Assembly: GCF_000429165.1 (NCBI RefSeq)
Contig: NZ_AUBI01000001.1
Span: 310,001 to 374,000 of the forward strand
DNA: 64,000 nucleotides
Reading direction: 5' to 3'
Source: Acetobacter nitrogenifigens DSM 23921 = NBRC 105050
GTDB taxonomy: Bacteria > Pseudomonadota > Alphaproteobacteria > Acetobacterales > Acetobacteraceae
Positions 10,196-17,408 of this stretch are shown in pieces. A model generated the notes under the pieces. It saw only the letters and a list, made by a program, of their open reading frames with translations. It did no database searches and was not told where the DNA came from. A program made the position numbers and the translations under genes. Numbering within the stretch: the stretch's first letter is position 1; each line of letters starts with the position of its first letter.

Positions 10196-10738
10196 TCAGG
10201 CCGCCGTGTCTCTGGTCGAGCCACTGCGCGCTCGCGCCGTCACTGCGATCACCGCCCCAAGAATTTCCGAAGGCGTGGGCGGACAACCGGGCACGAACAG
10301 ATCGACCGACGCGTGATTCTCCAGACCGCCCAACGTGGCGTAGTTTTGCGGGAAAAGCCCTCCGTCGCGCGCGCAGGCCCCGACTGCGATCAAGCCTTTC
10401 GGGCGTGGCATCGCCTCCCATGCCGCCCGTATCACGGGCGCCATCATGCGCGAGCAGCCGCCTGTCACCAGCAGCATATCCGCCAGACGCGGCGAAGCGG
10501 AGAACTCGACCCCCGCCTCGGCGAGACCATATCCACCCGTCTTCAAAGCCTCGACTTCAAGACCACAAGCCTCACACCCGCCACTGTCGACATGAAACAG
10601 GACCAGCGGGGATCGGGAAACGACCGGGGGCAGGGCCGGGCCGGCGGGCGCGACCAGCGCTGTGAAGAGCGCCCGTACCATTGATGAAGACATAGGTCGC
10701 CTCCGCCCCAGCTTATCAACATCCGTCAAAGACTTCAT
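10196..10738 (-). CDS. Hydrogenase-4/FHL small subunit-like protein (HyfI/HycG/NuoB family)
   Basis: 180 aa, last gene of a six-gene operon. It keeps the N2-type [4Fe-4S] ligands expected of NuoB/HyfI: CEAC (C55, C58), VGAC (C122) and PGCPPTP (C152), with an extra Cys at 95. The start at 10738 overlaps the large-subunit stop as ATGA; an internal ATG at 10693 is possible. It should form the peripheral electron-transfer module with the large subunit. Because that partner has no NiFe ligands (next gene), the name hydrogenase should not be taken literally. Confidence 0.82.
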   Translation of the reverse strand: MKSLTDVDKLGRRRPMSSSMVRALFTALVAPAGPALPPVVSRSPLVLFHVDSGGCEACGLEVEALKTGGYGLAEAGVEFSASPRLADMLLVTGGCSRMMAPVIRAAWEAMPRPKGLIAVGACARDGGLFPQNYATLGGLENHASVDLFVPGCPPTPSEILGAVIAVTARARSGSTRDTAA

Positions 10739-12354
10739 TGATCCACCGCCGCCGCCGAGACGCCGAAAGACGCCGTCACGACATCCACATCCAAAGCCCT
10801 TGCGCCAACAAGCGCCGCTTCCTGCGCCATCAAGATGGAGGGAGAAGGGTCGGCGATAAAGACCTGTTCCACACGCCCCTTACCCAACCCTACGACATAC
10901 CAGACAGCGCCATGAGCCGCCTCCACAGCGCCGAACCCCCAACACGGGTCAACCGGCGTGGGGAAGGCGGCGCACAGAGCGTCTGCCTCCTCAGCCAGCA
11001 ATGTCGCGCCCAGTGAATCGAGAAGCTCCAGACTCTCCAGAATCTCGTCAATCCGAAGGTCGGCGCGCGCACGGGCGTCGCCGCCGGTACGGGCGCAAGG
11101 CCGCAACTGCACGGCGCCATAGGCCGCCTGCCCCAGCCTGAGATCGCCACCGCGCCCACAAGCCCGTCCGACGACGCCGCCCAGTCCCAATGCGTCCATT
11201 TCCGCACGTCGTGTCATCCCCAGACCGGCAAGGCGCGCGAGCAGTCCCGGCGTCGTGCGCCACACGCCACGCAACGCGGCGACCTCACTGCGGCCGAACG
11301 CCGCCAGTTCCTGACACACCCACGCCAGAACCTGCGTTTCCGAGCGCGCGTCCCCGCCGGACGCGGCGCCGCCAATGGCGACCCCACCCGGACATATGCA
11401 ATCCATCAGCGTGCGCTTGCCCAGCGCCTTGCCACAGAACCTCATGAGCGTTTCCCGTGCCGCGAACAGGCGTGCGCTTACAAGCGCAGCGTCCGCCACC
11501 TGCGCCAGGCGCGCGAGCGCGGTCAGATGCGCGGAAACACGTTCGATCTCGCATAACGCCGCCCGCGCGACCTCGGCGATTAGAGGCGTGGCAACGCCTG
11601 CCGCCCGCTCCGCCGCCATGCAAAACGCCCATTGATGGGCCGCCGCCATGCTTACCGAAATACGCCCCGCCAGATCCGCCGCCGCCAAAGCAGTGCCGCC
11701 GCACATGCGCGAAGCGACCCCGCGGTGGGTGTAGCCGACGCGACTTTCGACAGAAGCCACAGCTGGTCCGGTCGGGCCGGGCGCGACGCCAAGCAGCAAA
11801 TGCGCAGGGGCAGCGAACCCGCCATTCGCGGGGCCGCGTGTGGCGATAGTCCCGGATCGAACCACCGCATCCGGAAGTTGTCCGAATTCCGGAATCTCGG
11901 GCGCGTATGTCGCAGCCCCCGGCCGGGCGGACAGAGGCGCGCTCGCGGTCCATGCGGCATGATCGACAAGCGGGCGCGTATCGCGCGCGTCCATCGCCTC
12001 GACGCCCCATAGATCATTGATTCGCCGCTCGAACGACGCGGCGGCCGGGCGCGGCCCCGACAGACCGGGATAACGTGCCCCATCCAGCTTCAGGACGGCC
12101 ATCAGTGGCCGGTCTCCGCCCTGACGCGGATCGGCGAACAGCGCCTGCACTGTGTCTCCGTCGCACCACAATCCGATGAAGGACAAGGGGTCGGCGGACA
12201 AGCTCTCCTGCAAGCCTCGCCATTCCATCTCGTCAAGTTCGAAGCGCCACGACGCGCCGACCGCGCGCCCGGATCGTATCAGCGCAGCGCTGTCACGGAG
12301 CCCCTCCGCGTCTTCTTTCGGTGGCGCGCCGAAGGGGATGAGACCGCCATTCAT
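10735..12354 (-). CDS. Hyf/Hyc/NuoCD-like large subunit lacking NiFe ligands
   Basis: 539 aa from the ATG at 12354 (ATGA with the preceding gene). The N-terminal third resembles the NuoC/30-kDa module and the rest the 49-kDa/hydrogenase large-subunit fold, with GYTHRG at 208-212. Where HycE/HyfG have the first Cys pair (CGIC), this protein has SVSM (233-236). Where they have DPCxxC near the C-terminus it has DPSPSIL (502-508). Both ligand pairs of the NiFe site are therefore missing. This fits an energy-converting-hydrogenase-related (Ehr-type) or complex-I-like module and not a hydrogenase. The reaction is unknown. Confidence 0.8.
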   Translation of the reverse strand: MNGGLIPFGAPPKEDAEGLRDSAALIRSGRAVGASWRFELDEMEWRGLQESLSADPLSFIGLWCDGDTVQALFADPRQGGDRPLMAVLKLDGARYPGLSGPRPAAASFERRINDLWGVEAMDARDTRPLVDHAAWTASAPLSARPGAATYAPEIPEFGQLPDAVVRSGTIATRGPANGGFAAPAHLLLGVAPGPTGPAVASVESRVGYTHRGVASRMCGGTALAAADLAGRISVSMAAAHQWAFCMAAERAAGVATPLIAEVARAALCEIERVSAHLTALARLAQVADAALVSARLFAARETLMRFCGKALGKRTLMDCICPGGVAIGGAASGGDARSETQVLAWVCQELAAFGRSEVAALRGVWRTTPGLLARLAGLGMTRRAEMDALGLGGVVGRACGRGGDLRLGQAAYGAVQLRPCARTGGDARARADLRIDEILESLELLDSLGATLLAEEADALCAAFPTPVDPCWGFGAVEAAHGAVWYVVGLGKGRVEQVFIADPSPSILMAQEAALVGARALDVDVVTASFGVSAAAVDQ

Positions 12355-13616
12355 CTCTCCACCCCGTCTGCAAAGCCGCTGACACCCGACCGAGCCACGG
12401 CTTGATCGGCGCCCGCTCCACGTCGTCGCGCCATAGCCGGAAACGGCGCCACGACGACCAGGGCCGCCAGCAAGATTGAATGAGCCTGAAGCGCCTGCGT
12501 AAGGAGAAGCACCGCGCCGAACGCAGGAAGCACAAGCAGGACTCCCGCCTGCCGTTGCAAGAACGCCGAGACCGGGTCGCCACGACCTGGAACGCCATTC
12601 TCCAACAGCCAGGGCGCCGCCAACGTCGGTCCCATGAGAGCCAGCAGCGCGGCGCTCGGGCAACCTGCGGACGCCGCGATCGCCGCAAGCCCGAGACATC
12701 CCGACACGACGAGCATCGGTCGCCCGGCTGCCGATCCGCTCACCAGTCGCGCCGCCGATACAACGACGGAAAGGAATCCAGTCACGATCAGAGCGAACGA
12801 CAGTGGCGCGAACAACGACACGGGTTCCGAGCCCACCTGGACCGTGGCCAGCAGGATCGCCGCCATGCAGAACCTGAACACGCTCAGGACACGCGCCGAC
12901 GACAGCGTTTCTCGACCCCCGTTACGAAGATATTGCTCCACCACGAACGGCGCGACGGGGAACAGGCCGCCCAGTATAACGAAACCGGCGCCCAACAGGA
13001 CGGCGCCAGAAGCCGCTACCGGATGCGCCGCCCCTGCAATCGCGGTCAGCGCGCCTACGGCATTCCGGCGAAGAGCGTCCCATCCGGAGAGCGCCGCTCC
13101 TCTTCTTCCGTCGTGAAAGACGGTCAGCAACGCCGAGCCCGTAAGCAGCATGGCCAATGCTACCGGCGTCAGAGCCAGAGAAAGCGCGAGGGCCGTGAAT
13201 CCCGCGCCCCAAAACGAAAGCGCAGGTCCCAGCTTCTCCCGGTCTGACCGGGAGAAGTGCTCGCCACGCTCGTCTCCCGACGCGACCGCCTCTTCGTGAA
13301 GCGCGCCTGCCTGAAAAGCGGCAGCTTGAGAAGACAGAGCCCGGGGCGCCGCAGCCAGCAGCTCCATGACCAGCCCGACCGAGACCAGCACGCGTCCCCA
13401 TATCGCAACCGATCCGGTGTCCACCCACGACATCGACGGACGACCATGCCCGGTCGCAGCGATTATCCCGGCCATTACAGACAAAAGCAGACCGACTGCG
13501 GCGACGGGAACTGCAACCGAAACGCTACGCCCCTGCCCGATCGCGCCGAGCGCAATCCCGGCCAGAAAAGGCCAGGCGAGAGCAGCCAGAACCAACAGAT
13601 CGACCACTTCAGTCAT
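12351..13616 (-). CDS. HyfF/NuoN-like antiporter-type membrane subunit, divergent
   Basis: 421 aa from the ATG at 13616, overlapping the next upstream gene as ATGA. About twelve hydrophobic segments in the proton-translocating antiporter arrangement. It is shorter than typical HyfF (around 520 aa). In the region where antiporter subunits normally show P-x-H-x-W-L-P-x-A-H it reads LFPVAPFVVEQYLRN, so the His/Trp/Asp residues are replaced. Assignment rests on topology and position between HyfE-like and large subunits. Confidence 0.65.
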   Translation of the reverse strand: MTEVVDLLVLAALAWPFLAGIALGAIGQGRSVSVAVPVAAVGLLLSVMAGIIAATGHGRPSMSWVDTGSVAIWGRVLVSVGLVMELLAAAPRALSSQAAAFQAGALHEEAVASGDERGEHFSRSDREKLGPALSFWGAGFTALALSLALTPVALAMLLTGSALLTVFHDGRRGAALSGWDALRRNAVGALTAIAGAAHPVAASGAVLLGAGFVILGGLFPVAPFVVEQYLRNGGRETLSSARVLSVFRFCMAAILLATVQVGSEPVSLFAPLSFALIVTGFLSVVVSAARLVSGSAAGRPMLVVSGCLGLAAIAASAGCPSAALLALMGPTLAAPWLLENGVPGRGDPVSAFLQRQAGVLLVLPAFGAVLLLTQALQAHSILLAALVVVAPFPAMARRRGAGADQAVARSGVSGFADGVER

Positions 13617-14215
13617 GACGGGGCCTCGGGCTCGTCCCCGACACGACGCAGTGACAGGCGCTCGACAAAACGCAACCCGGCGCCCGACAACGCCAGCATG
13701 ACCGCGCTCACCGCCCAGATCGGCGGGATCTCTCCACGACAGACGGCCAGCAAGAGCGCGCCATCGCACGCCGCAAGCACGCCGGCGAACTGCCGCAATG
13801 GTCCCGCGCCAAGCGCCGCCACCGTCACGCCGACCAGCGTAACCGGGAGCGCCACCCCGGCGCCGCCTCTGATGACGCTGGCGCTCGTCGCTCCGATTGC
13901 GGTGGCGACCGGGTCAGAAAAGCTTAACCCCGCTCCGACGACCAGCAGCAGCGCCAATCCGAACGTCGCAACCGAACGGCCTGTCACGACAGACGAAACG
14001 GAGGCGTAGCCACGCAGACGCCACGCCGGAACGCCGCCCGCAAGCAGCGCCGCAGCGGCGGCGAACCACAGCGCAAAGACGTCCGGAGAGCGGAAATCGA
14101 ACGAAGCGTCGATAACCAGCAACGCCGTCGCCACGGCCAGAACGGGCGCGGCGGCGAAACCGACCAGTACGAGAGCCAGAGAGGCCAGTTCAAGGAGGGC
14201 GAGCACGATGCTCAT
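13613..14215 (-). CDS. HyfE-like membrane subunit
   Basis: 200 aa from the ATG at 14215 (ATGA overlap with the HyfC-like gene). Strongly hydrophobic with about six membrane helices. Length and the WAVSAVMLALSGAGL..FVERL ending fit HyfE/NuoK-like subunits. Membrane-arm component of the complex; no enzymatic motif is expected. Confidence 0.65.
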   Translation of the reverse strand: MSIVLALLELASLALVLVGFAAAPVLAVATALLVIDASFDFRSPDVFALWFAAAAALLAGGVPAWRLRGYASVSSVVTGRSVATFGLALLLVVGAGLSFSDPVATAIGATSASVIRGGAGVALPVTLVGVTVAALGAGPLRQFAGVLAACDGALLLAVCRGEIPPIWAVSAVMLALSGAGLRFVERLSLRRVGDEPEAPS

Positions 14216-15204
14216 CGAGAGGCGCTTCCTGCAGCGTCGGGGGCGGCCCACGTTTCCGAAGACGGTTCTGACGGCGTAGCCGCCAGTTGCAGGGCCAACA
14301 CCGCGAGCACGAGCGCCAGACCGCCACGCAGTCGCGCAGTCGCCACCGGACCGAAAGCGATCGCGCGGGCCGACGCCAGCACACAGGCGACGACCGCCGC
14401 CCGCGCCAGCCAGAACGCCGCCGTCAGACCACAATCGCCAAACCAGACGAACTGCGCTGAAACGCTCGCCCCCGAGACTGGCGGCGCGGCAAGCGCGCGC
14501 GGCCACGCGAGATCGCCCGCAAGTGTGATCCACGTGAGGTCGAGCACATCGCTCGCAAGCATCAGCATCGCACGTTCGCTCCCCTGAGCTTCAAGAGGCT
14601 CTGACACTCCCCACGTCGGCCCTATGGCGAGCAACGCGACCCCGGCGAGCAGGAACGCTCCCCGTGGAGCAGTTTCATCCTCACGCAGCCCTGCCAGAAC
14701 CGCATCCAGATCCGTCGTAACGCCAGTGGCGAAAAGAAGCGCCACGATCAGCAGCAACGCAGGCGCCGCTGTCGCTCCAGCCGCGAGACGCAGCATGGCG
14801 CCTCCTGAAATCTCCGCCGGGTCGTTCAAGGCGGGCAGTTGGACAAGAAACCGTGCGGCCGCCAGAAGGCCGCCGATCATCAGGATATCGGCAGAACCGG
14901 CGGGCGTCAGATGAACCGAGAAGGCCGGAGCCAGACAAGCCGCCGTTATCGCCGCCCCGCAAGCCAACGGAGCAGCAGCGACAAGAAGTGGGTTCGAGGG
15001 AATGATGTCTGAAAAATCAACCGAGGGCGTGCGCCACGCAGACACAATCCGCCGCCAGCGCAGAAGCGACGACGGAGCCCCCCCGCCGGTCAGACGCGCG
15101 GCGAAATGATCGCGCACTCCGGCGATCAGCGGCGCGGTGAGAACCACCGCAGCCAGTTGCGCCGCCAGCACGATCAGGGAGAGAAACAGATGCATCGCCG
15201 TCAT
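14212..15204 (-). CDS. HyfC/HycD-like (NuoH family) membrane subunit
   Basis: 330 aa from the ATG at 15204, sharing ATGA with the preceding gene. The N-terminus holds a hydrophobic helix followed by PLIAGVRDHFAARLTGGGAPSSLLRWRRI and then SNPLLVAAAPL, the HycD/NuoH order in which this loop contacts the peripheral arm. About eight helices. This subunit normally connects the electron-transfer arm to the ion-pumping arm. Confidence 0.7.
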   Translation of the reverse strand: MTAMHLFLSLIVLAAQLAAVVLTAPLIAGVRDHFAARLTGGGAPSSLLRWRRIVSAWRTPSVDFSDIIPSNPLLVAAAPLACGAAITAACLAPAFSVHLTPAGSADILMIGGLLAAARFLVQLPALNDPAEISGGAMLRLAAGATAAPALLLIVALLFATGVTTDLDAVLAGLREDETAPRGAFLLAGVALLAIGPTWGVSEPLEAQGSERAMLMLASDVLDLTWITLAGDLAWPRALAAPPVSGASVSAQFVWFGDCGLTAAFWLARAAVVACVLASARAIAFGPVATARLRGGLALVLAVLALQLAATPSEPSSETWAAPDAAGSASR

Positions 15205-16943
15205 CCCCAGAGCGCCCCTATGATCAGGCCCAATCCCGCCAGCGCGAGAGCGATGGCGAGCCCCTGATCCTCGACGCGCGATACACGAACGGACAATATG
15301 CGGACGCCTGTGATCAGCAGCCGCGCCTGCCGACGGAGGCCTCTGCGCCATGTCGCGCCGCAGCCCGGCCAGAGCAGCACGCGGGCCAGATCGCCCTGCA
15401 TGGAGAGGGAAGGCCATATACGCGGCTCGCCAAAAGGCAACCAGGAAGCGCGGGTCTTCATGCCGCCGGCCCACGGCGCCGATTGCGACGATCCCCGTTC
15501 AGCCAGAAAGGCGGCGCCGAAGCGTGATCCGGACGCATCTTCCATCGGGCTTTGTCTGGCAGGCCGGACCTTGGCGATGCGCGCCAGGCTGGCCGCGAAG
15601 ACCACGCAGACGAACAGCGCCAGCGGCGTAAACCGCGAAAGGCCGTCCGGCGCGATCAGGCTCAGCAACTGCGTCTGATCGGTGAACCCGGCGCCGCCTG
15701 AAAATGCGCGCAGAACCGGCCGGGCCGCGAAGAAAAGAACGCCCGGCGCGAGCGCCGCCGCCATGGTGAGGCCCAGGCCACAAAGAACAGGCGTAGCCTC
15801 GGGCCACGCAACGTCCTGCGTCGCCGCCATGCGTGGCGTCCGCGCGCCGCCCAACAGGGTCTGTGTCGCAACACGGGCGGAGGCGAGTCCAGCCAACCCG
15901 ACGAGCGCCCCGAAACAGGCCAGCGTCAGCAGGAATGGCGTCTTTGCAGCAAGGGAATCGCCAGCCGGCGATTCGAGAACGATTTCAGTCTCCAGCCAAA
16001 GGAGGGAAAACGCCCCCGAAGGCGGCAGGAAGGAGACAAGAAACAGCGCGCCCGCGAACAGACTGGCGAGGCGAGGCGCGAAAAGCGGCAGACCCCCGAG
16101 CCGATCCAGGTGATCAGACCCGGCGCGTGCGGTGACCGCATCCCCCAGCGCCAACAACACGGCGGCGGCAGGCCACACGGTCACAAGCCCGAGCACGAAA
16201 GCCTTCTCCGCCGTGCTGGCGGACAGCGCCATGTCCGCCGCTCTCGCCTGAGCGGCCAATGCGGCGGCAACGAGCATGAAAGCGAAAACAATCGACGCCA
16301 GAGACAAAAGAGCCTCGCTTAGCGTTCGGCAGGCCAACGCACGCACGGCCCTCCATGCGCCGACCACAAGCGCGCCGGCCATCAGAAGCGCAGTCGGGCC
16401 TGCTGCGAGCGGCTCAGCGTGCTGCAATACGCTACGTGACGCCACAAGGAGGGCAAGGCTCATGACGAGCAGATGCGACCGGTCGACCCGCTTCGTCCCG
16501 CCCCCTGACACGCACAGCAAGAGGGCGCCGCAAATCAGCCAGTCCGACCGCCACAGGCAGGCGGCGCCCAGCAGCAACGCGGGCGCGGCGACGTCGCCAC
16601 CGCCGCGGGACGGCCTGGCGGCGACCAGAACCGCACCCGACACGACGAAAGCGAGCAAAACGGGATCAACGCAAAACGTGGCCAGGCACGCCAGAGCGTA
16701 ACCCCAATCAGTACGGTCTCGCGCTCCGGCCGAAGTTGCGGCGGCATGAGACGCTCCGGCCAGAGCCAAGGGAACGAGCGCCAGAGGAAAGAGAAACAAC
16801 GCGCCAATTGCGTCAGGCCGCGCAAAAGCGGCGCCCGAAGGAAACGGCCAGACCGCAACGGCGGGAAACGCCGCACAACAGACGCCACATAATGGCGCCG
16901 CGACCCACAGGGCGACGGAGATCGTTACGAGCCGGGCGTGCAC
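15201..16943 (-). CDS. HyfB/NuoL-like antiporter-type membrane subunit, divergent
   Basis: 580 aa, first gene of the operon, with a GTG start at 16943. Many membrane helices. A recognisable antiporter stretch is D-x2-DRLGGLPLFAPRLASLFAGALFLVSFLPPSGAFSLLWLE, equivalent to the R/D-x-LGGL...PP-x-GF block of HyfB. The preceding helix reads AEKAFVLGLVTVWPAA where HyfB has an H-A-L-F-K-type sequence, so key channel residues are only partly kept. Shorter than E. coli HyfB (about 670 aa). Confidence 0.7.
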   Translation of the reverse strand: MHARLVTISVALWVAAPLCGVCCAAFPAVAVWPFPSGAAFARPDAIGALFLFPLALVPLALAGASHAAATSAGARDRTDWGYALACLATFCVDPVLLAFVVSGAVLVAARPSRGGGDVAAPALLLGAACLWRSDWLICGALLLCVSGGGTKRVDRSHLLVMSLALLVASRSVLQHAEPLAAGPTALLMAGALVVGAWRAVRALACRTLSEALLSLASIVFAFMLVAAALAAQARAADMALSASTAEKAFVLGLVTVWPAAAVLLALGDAVTARAGSDHLDRLGGLPLFAPRLASLFAGALFLVSFLPPSGAFSLLWLETEIVLESPAGDSLAAKTPFLLTLACFGALVGLAGLASARVATQTLLGGARTPRMAATQDVAWPEATPVLCGLGLTMAAALAPGVLFFAARPVLRAFSGGAGFTDQTQLLSLIAPDGLSRFTPLALFVCVVFAASLARIAKVRPARQSPMEDASGSRFGAAFLAERGSSQSAPWAGGMKTRASWLPFGEPRIWPSLSMQGDLARVLLWPGCGATWRRGLRRQARLLITGVRILSVRVSRVEDQGLAIALALAGLGLIIGALWG

Positions 16944-17408
16944 CGCACGATTATCGGCGAGGATGCAGGCTGCGACCGCAAACGCGAAGGGAAGGAAAGT
17001 GAGTATTGGTGGTGGTCCGGTCGAAAAGCGCGTGACGTGTTCGGCGTGATCCTAGAGCATCGTCGAGCCGGACGGAATCTGTCGGGACGAGAAACTGATC
17101 GCGCAGCCAAAGAAGTTGGCGCCCGGACCCGCGCCTCAAGCCCGCGACGATACGCCTGGTTTCCTAACAACGCCTTTCGATGTCCGTTGGGTTGACCTCA
17201 GATTACGGATCCGACGTGTTGAGGCGCGGCCCGCCTTCTCAAAAGAAGCAGCGCCCCCCTACCCTCGGGCTCCGACGTGGCCTCACCCTGCGGAGGCTCG
17301 CCAAAAAATCTCCAGAGCATGCCGAGGCCGCGCGTCCGTGGCTGCCGTCTGGAAAAACCTTTCTGGAAACGCTCCGAAACGCAGTTGCGCACAGACTAGT
17401 GGGGCGTC
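16944..17408. promoter_or_regulatory. 465-bp gap upstream of the hyf-like operon
   Basis: Lies between the parC stop and the first gene of the hyf-like operon, so it should hold the operon promoter. I see no tRNA, no clear -35/-10 pair and no strong terminator for parC. A short CTTCT/AGAAG hairpin is near 17240. Confidence 0.3.

Follow-up and report, generated by a model that had tools for sequence, protein, structure and literature searches.

The question raised by this locus is what a complex of the hydrogenase-4 type does in an acetic acid bacterium when the residues that would hold its nickel-iron (NiFe) site are missing. The locus lies in a 64,000-nucleotide stretch of Acetobacter nitrogenifigens DSM 23921 = NBRC 105050 (assembly GCF_000429165.1, contig NZ_AUBI01000001.1, positions 310,001 to 374,000), referred to here as the window. 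Six genes are arranged on its minus strand at positions 10196-16943 in the order B-C-E-F-G-I, which is the Hyf gene order, with a four-base overlap at each junction, confirming the six-gene cluster reported in a preliminary description of the window. The large subunit encoded by the cluster was 97% identical to that of Acetobacter sacchari, which places the window in Acetobacter, in agreement with the acetic-acid-type bacterium proposed in that description. As judged from sequence, the product is most likely a non-pumping, non-hydrogenase membrane complex that acts as an iron-sulphur (Fe-S) relay, sensor or scaffold.

The large subunit was identified as Complex1_49kDa in Pfam (E 4e-15), and its closest solved relative in a search of the Protein Data Bank (PDB) was HycE of the E. 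coli formate hydrogenlyase (E 1e-15). An alignment of 88 large subunits gave S, M, S and A in the four NiFe ligand columns of the window's protein. The true hydrogenases in this alignment (L111, L112 and L164) had cysteine in all four columns, while the remaining 85 sequences had at most one cysteine across them, and that in five rows. The motif SVSM aligned with the CGIC of true NiFe subunits, as had been claimed. The assignment of DPSPSIL (residues 502-508) as the DPCxxC counterpart was incorrect, as this motif lies about 30 residues N-terminal of the real C-terminal ligand columns, which land on S533 and A536. Since these two residues are not cysteines either, the conclusion that the subunit has no NiFe site stands despite the mismatch, and the aligned ligand columns offer no cysteine that the preliminary description could have overlooked. 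In NuoD the RLDY tyrosine belongs to the quinone site, and the window's protein has V in that column.

Automatic naming of these genes would imply a genuine NiFe hydrogenase or formate hydrogenlyase, and among solved proteins HycE is indeed the one closest to the large subunit. This explanation is refuted by the sequence and retains next to no probability: the NiFe ligands are absent, no match to NiFeSe_Hases or to HypD was found anywhere in the window's genome, and no ferredoxin-type subunit is encoded in the cluster. The earlier statement that the cluster has no NiFe maturation gene agrees with the result for HypD, the one Hyp gene searched for in the genome. There is no formate dehydrogenase among the six genes, although no search aimed at this enzyme was made. 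Elsewhere in the genus HypD was encoded in 9 of 41 Acetobacter genomes, so some Acetobacter probably carry a real NiFe hydrogenase at another locus. A genuine formate-hydrogenlyase-type cluster with CGIC, DPCYSC and a ferredoxin subunit was also observed in the same bacterial family (L164:2869-9031, genome G089, 1.9 Mb), and in another genome the large-subunit match was interrupted by a single in-frame TGA (G294:C1:467128-468447).

The small subunit matched Oxidored_q6 (Pfam, E 2e-23) and, in the PDB search, NuoB, MbhJ and HycG about equally (1e-26 to 1e-25). As previously described it contains all N2-type cysteines, and all four are kept in 60 of the 61 aligned small subunits. Further acetic-acid-type small subunits also keep all four, with the exception of genus g124. 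A search for HyfA/HyfH-type ferredoxin motifs, restricted to the pattern C..C..C...C, found none in the window's cluster, consistent with the reported absence of HyfH and HyfA. Across 65 loci the pattern matched ten frames, eight of which were judged by eye to be chance; the two convincing motifs (L080 and L083) are both more than 3 kb away from the operon. A small-subunit match was present in 16 of 17 chosen genomes, one of these being the true formate hydrogenlyase L164 and one an orphan, L163. The orphan (L163:8270-8890, genome G106) keeps the cysteines and is located beside an NrtR-type regulator and genes for nicotinamide adenine dinucleotide (NAD) biosynthesis; no large subunit was found within the fetched stretch. 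The absence of NiFe ligands together with the retained N2-type cysteines supports the earlier assignment of the cluster as Ehr-like and not hydrogenase.

Two kinds of cluster were distinguished within this NiFe-free family. The division was drawn from the C-terminal motifs of the large subunit, with the B alignment already seen. The less diverged kind, here called canonical, likewise has no NiFe ligands, which fits the published Ehr description in passages of PMC6349859 and PMC10284858. Its large subunits contain the near-invariant segments PVHAGIIEPGHFRF, SGDSTVA and NKSFNCSYSG(H/V)DL, and in the window's kind all three have diverged. One locus, L066, was placed in the canonical set though its motif is partly degraded, and this locus is without the TM12-type lysine (TM, transmembrane) of subunit B. 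In a tree of the large subunit 40 of the 41 sequences of the window's kind formed one clade (Shimodaira-Hasegawa-like approximate likelihood ratio test, 98) nested among Acetobacteraceae-type canonical sequences, with the remaining sequence, L053, branching beside it. The tree was made by a quick method with no bootstrap, contains some long branches and includes 17 hand-picked loci of the 56 numbered L085-L140. It nests the window in the NiFe-free family with SGDSTVA and NKSFNCSYSG; the published Ehr reference sequences were not in the tree.

Columns conserved at 90% in the canonical sequences were counted as kept when shared by at least 80% of the other kind and as lost when shared by 20% or fewer, columns in between being uncounted. 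This gave 50 kept and 38 lost columns for the large subunit, and 27 kept (the four cysteine columns among them) and 13 lost for the small subunit. Among the lost large-subunit columns are those of PVHAGIIEPGH, the glycine and aspartate of SGDS, and N487, K488, N491 and Y494 near the C-terminus. Conservation restricted to the window's kind was seen in 10 of 498 columns of G, 2 of 140 of I, 5 of 293 of C and 0 of 518 of B, counted without L051, L053, L073, L076, L078 and L079 (early branches, long branches and g124). The near-duplicate loci L021-L023 were left out of the tree, the kept, lost and clade-only columns and the counts of the HyfC motif and HyfB lysines given below; they are included in the cysteine count (61), the counts of HyfC glutamates and histidine (39 others) and the survey of gene order. 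L158 and L159, from the genus of L073, were counted in the HyfC glutamate and histidine, tree, HyfC-motif and HyfB-lysine sets. Three genomes were found to contain two copies of the cluster (G143 with L053 and L054, G159 with L058 and L059, G136 with L066 and L067), one copy being of a broad SYSGHDL kind and the other an Acetobacteraceae-kind copy, in which the losses have gone to different lengths.

Further losses are in the membrane arm. None of the four membrane proteins gave a Pfam match at E values up to 1, and they are without charged residues that less diverged relatives keep, two features that were missed by the preliminary description. The sole useful NCBIfam match among them was that of B to hydrogenase 4 subunit B (1.5e-6). 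In profile comparisons B matched canonical HyfB (E 3e-27) and C matched canonical HyfC (E 7.5e-22). The canonical proteins in turn aligned well with HycC (3e-44) and HycD (1e-45), and a PDB search with the window's own C returned chance hits only; one with a poorly placed stretch of another locus, L065:7999-8984, returned no hit. B is a recognisable member of the antiporter-like family, but its channel lysine motifs are missing: of 26 canonical loci all have the TM7-type motif and 23 have the TM12-type motif, compared to none of 33 loci of the window's kind for either. The HyfC residues E129, E202 and H207 were each present in all 27 canonical rows and in none of the 39 others, E208 in 26 canonical rows and 2 others, E137 in 27 and 5, and E188 in 26 and 5. 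In complex I and its relatives these lysines and glutamates carry protons. Subunit E aligned with canonical HyfE by hhalign with an E value of 0.004 and a probability of only 3.5%, the canonical ENG segment standing opposite CDG.

These losses disfavour the 'ion-coupling machine' that had been proposed, as the proton-carrying lysines, most of the glutamates and the conserved large-subunit segments are missing in the window's clade. It is rather unlikely that the complex is a still active ion-translocating Ehr enzyme in which the residues have moved and new HyfC acids replace the lost glutamates. Such an enzyme would be consistent with the conserved aspartate and tryptophan residues of HyfC that are new in the window's kind (W in 28, D in 26 and D in 25 of 29 rows, compared to 2, 0 and 0 of 27 canonical rows) and sit near the places of the lost Glu and His, with the charged HyfC columns that are kept, and with the retention of the membrane arm with the operon in most loci. 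It would have to operate without either HyfB channel lysine motif in all 33 loci and without the conserved large-subunit segments, and inspection by eye of the window's F gave GFVILGGLFP at the place where a lysine is expected. The new HyfC residues form a motif, Dx5-6W..L..D. Of 36 loci that belong to the window's kind 23 have it, compared to none of 27 canonical loci and 17 of 72000 shuffles; the carriers are 19 of 20 Acetobacter together with L045, L046, L047 and L078. The EYSG pattern (16 of 27 canonical loci, 0 of 36 others) was not used as evidence.

The distribution and integrity of the genes were examined across several samples. The large subunit was detected in each of 36 further Acetobacter genomes, full-length matches being 34-50% identical to the window's protein, and in 32 of these genomes it forms one unbroken frame. 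At the level of the family a match at E 1e-14 was obtained in 212 of 249 genomes and 85 of 102 genera, the remaining 37 genomes having no match at this threshold. With an alignment of the less diverged relatives as query, 23 of 289 genomes sampled from the class gave strong matches (>490 bits), as did 56 of 299 sampled from the phylum (>500 bits), the two samples overlapping. Of 65 loci, 51 (including three near-duplicates) have all six genes recognisable in the window's order, and the other 14 show part of it. Such an arrangement is far beyond chance.

Ratios of non-synonymous to synonymous substitution rates (dN/dS) were calculated for seven unsaturated Acetobacter pairs on stop-to-stop frames, with ranges of 0-0.08 (I), 0.08-0.18 (G), 0.02-0.23 (F), 0.12-0.20 (E), 0.05-0.25 (B) and 0.07-0.28 (C); the L040/L043 pair was saturated in five of the six genes. 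The comparison of the window with A. sacchari gave 0.18 for I, 0.13 for G, 0.27 for F, 0.13 for E, 0.36 for B and 0.33 for C. These values indicate constraint on every gene of the operon, weaker for the membrane subunits, with the small subunit overall the most constrained in Acetobacter. It is improbable that the cluster is a relic in slow decay, retained only for want of time. The low identity of the large subunits within a single genus, the family genomes without a match, the four Acetobacter genomes with split or partial genes and the raised values for the window's B and C are what such decay would give, but the large subunit is unbroken even in Acetobacter genomes of 1.5 and 1.7 Mb, dN/dS is far below 1 in all seven pairs and the clade has conserved columns of its own. 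The unbroken frames and dN/dS values together rule out the pseudogene as a general state in the relatives, a possibility that had been raised in the preliminary description.

In genus g124 the small subunits of three species (L141-L143) retain one of the four N2-type cysteines. The loci L073, L158 and L159 of this genus (genomes G259, G216 and G160) have six open frames in the same order despite the loss of three N2 cysteines. The frames are of nearly equal lengths, E and F being assigned by position. For one pair within this genus dN/dS was 0.115 for G, similar to two neighbouring frames (0.12 and 0.20), and 0.37 for I, 0.36 for E and 0.33 for F. Taken alone, this genus would suggest that the complex is a pure structural scaffold without redox chemistry, kept since other membrane proteins lean on it, and structural roles have been suggested for deranged bc1 and COX1-like proteins of the Acetobacteraceae in passages of PMC10715153. 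As an explanation for the whole clade a scaffold is nevertheless unlikely: the four cysteines are nearly universal in the aligned small subunits, and this subunit carries, overall, the strongest constraint in Acetobacter. The relaxation of the small subunit in g124 also points away from it, though E and F are relaxed to the same extent in that pair. For most species the conserved cysteines favour a redox role, and the state of g124 favours a scaffold in that genus.

Our preferred reading is that the product is a member of the complex-I/group-4-hydrogenase superfamily after two rounds of loss, now serving as a non-pumping relay or sensor, and we consider the chances of its being right or wrong to be evenly balanced. 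In the first round, seen in the alignment and the tree, the entire family lost the NiFe ligands. In the second, the clade that contains the acetic acid bacteria lost the large-subunit segments, most of the HyfC-like membrane acids and the HyfB-like antiporter lysines, but retained the N2-type Fe-S ligands and a good part of the large-subunit scaffold. The complex would still assemble on the membrane and bind one [4Fe-4S] cluster, and would neither produce hydrogen nor pump protons by the classical route. It may relay electrons or sense redox state without pumping, and because no ferredoxin-type subunit is encoded with it, a cytosolic partner would dock directly at the small subunit. In g124 the complex may have become a pure scaffold. 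With the NiFe site and the pumping residues lost and the Fe-S site kept, the complex probably does a job that has yet to be described.

Several observations weigh against this relay or sensor reading. Some charged HyfC columns are still kept in the non-canonical rows (D96 in 27, R31 in 29 and R108 in 20 of 39). Acetobacter supplies 20 of the 29 HyfC rows, so that shared descent plays a part in the clade-specific columns, and 20 of the 33 HyfB rows, which may likewise reflect shared descent. Among the 36 loci of the window's kind, 13 are without the HyfC motif, and almost all of these come from outside Acetobacter. The window's F has no HyfF match by sequence (direct hhalign comparison with canonical HyfF, E 0.67); the F-position gene does still match canonical HyfF in L055 (2e-7) and L073 (7e-7), both of the window's clade, but no chain of sequence matches joins these to the window's F and the tie is one of position only. 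The control genes compared between the window and A. sacchari were more constrained than the operon (dN/dS 0.09 for pssA and 0.02 for parC), and L045/L046 gave values of 0.24-0.95, probably inflated by long frame ends outside the genes. The large subunit is split or partial in genomes G005, G010, G025 and G029, which may be due to faulty assembly or to genuine breakage. The large and B subunits were modelled with AlphaFold from five sequences; the models were poor (predicted local distance difference test scores of 46 and 48) and served only as fold-search queries; the top hits were HycE for the large subunit and HycC for B, the latter (7z0t_C, E 5e-4) obtained from a low-confidence model. Finally, relay, sensor and scaffold are not separable on sequence grounds.

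A more specific proposal is that in acetic acid bacteria a proton pump of the complex I family became a neofunctional pseudo-complex: catalysis and pumping were removed together, one Fe-S cluster remained for sensing or relay, Acetobacter and its neighbours evolved a new docking surface on their NuoH-like subunit, and in g124 the Fe-S cluster, too, was given up. Such a complex would be an example of this respiratory superfamily retained for something other than energy conversion. This proposal is possible and is held tentatively, short of an even chance; it is weakened by the restriction of the HyfC motif to Acetobacter and a few neighbours and by the relaxation in g124, which extends beyond the small subunit.

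The positions of the genes and motifs are given in Table 1. The B frame remains open to position 17051 upstream of its first GTG, and the true start may be further upstream. The interval 16943-17051 would encode an extra hydrophobic stretch resembling that of relatives; no ATG, GTG or TTG start is listed there.

Table 1. Genes and sequence motifs of the six-gene cluster, in positions of the window.
Feature	Position	Strand	Description
B	15201..16943	-	HyfB/HycC-like antiporter-type membrane subunit, 580 residues counted from first GTG
C	14212..15204	-	HyfC/HycD (NuoH)-like membrane subunit, 330 residues
E	13613..14215	-	HyfE-position membrane subunit, 200 residues; assigned by position and weak similarity
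F	12351..13616	-	HyfF-position membrane subunit, 421 residues; assigned by position, direct HyfF similarity undetected
G	10735..12354	-	HyfG/HycE (NuoCD)-like large subunit, 539 residues, without NiFe ligands
I	10196..10738	-	HyfI/HycG (NuoB)-like small subunit, 180 residues, N2-type cysteines C55, C58, C122, C152
SDVLDLTWITLAGDLAWP	14500..14553	-	motif of the HyfC-like subunit, common to Acetobacter and some neighbouring genera
SVSM	11647..11658	-	large subunit residues 233-236, at the position of the CGIC NiFe motif
SFGVSAAAVDQ	10738..10770	-	large subunit, true DPCxxC counterpart
PANGGFAAPAHLLL	11791..11832	-	large subunit, diverged counterpart of the canonical PVHAGIIEPGHFRF segment

The operon is preceded upstream by a parC-like frame (topoisomerase IV subunit A), recognised by eye, and is flanked on the other side by two plus-strand genes, psd and pssA, whose names rest on the Pfam matches obtained with homologues. 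Homologues of pssA and psd were present in the fetched flank of 31 of 65 loci, including three near-duplicates. They are on the strand opposite to the operon in the 14 entries listed for each, and mostly adjoin it, lying about 6-7 kb away in L022 and L030. They were rejected as conserved partner genes, as the arrangement looks like inherited gene order, and the methyltransferase-like and gloB-like neighbours were rejected since both shift place between loci. In the flanks of 22 canonical loci, where 63 of 156 picked frames were scanned, none of the 25 of 44 families listed occurred in more than four (Phosphodiest).

If the two-loss reading is correct, selection can keep the architecture of complex I after its redox chemistry and pumping parts are gone. 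The host group is industrially important and its respiration is already unusual. A natural series for testing what each part does is formed by the Ehr relatives that have diverged less, the acetic-acid type and the ligand-losing genus. Where these genes are annotated as 'hydrogenase-4' or 'formate hydrogenlyase', the names should not be taken as signs of hydrogen metabolism.

When compared with known systems, the complex shares NuoB-like N2 cysteines and a NuoCD-like large subunit with respiratory complex I, from which it differs by the absence of an NADH module and NuoI from the cluster and by the V in the RLDY tyrosine column. The hallmarks of the pumping members of this superfamily, the antiporter lysines and most of the NuoH-like glutamates, are missing. 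The nearest solved relatives of G and B are HycE and HycC of E. coli formate hydrogenlyase-1 (HycCDEFG, 7z0s), and the gene order is that of hydrogenase-4 (HyfA-I); compared to both systems the window is without CGIC and DPCxxC, HyfA and HyfH in the cluster, HypD in the genome and the B channel lysine motifs. The Ehr complexes are likewise group-4-hydrogenase-like membrane complexes with antiporter-like subunits and without NiFe ligands, and the window resembles them in its NuoCD/group 4-kind large subunit without NiFe cysteines and its small subunit with N2-type cysteines. In the passages of these papers considered here the function of Ehr complexes is called unknown (PMC10284858) or hypothetical, with charge translocation supposed (PMC6349859). 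Unlike the Ehr complexes of the latter passages, the window's clade is without the residues that would carry charge and without segments that its less diverged relatives conserve. Searches for hydrogenase words gave no mention in PMC3751514, PMC6915089 and PMC5756330, and nothing on the second-stage form or the cluster in acetic acid bacteria was found among the matches listed from open-licence literature. Ehr complexes are already known; the second stage of loss is what is new here. A parallel is provided by the same bacterial family, as PMC10715153 describes a deranged bc1 complex and COX1-like proteins; its text uses 'hydrogenase' once (type 1) and 'HyfB' never, and 12 of its 16 passages, those listed, contain no discussion of the six-gene cluster. 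The bc1 complex and COX1-like proteins are a different system, and are also respiratory complexes kept after the loss of metal ligands.

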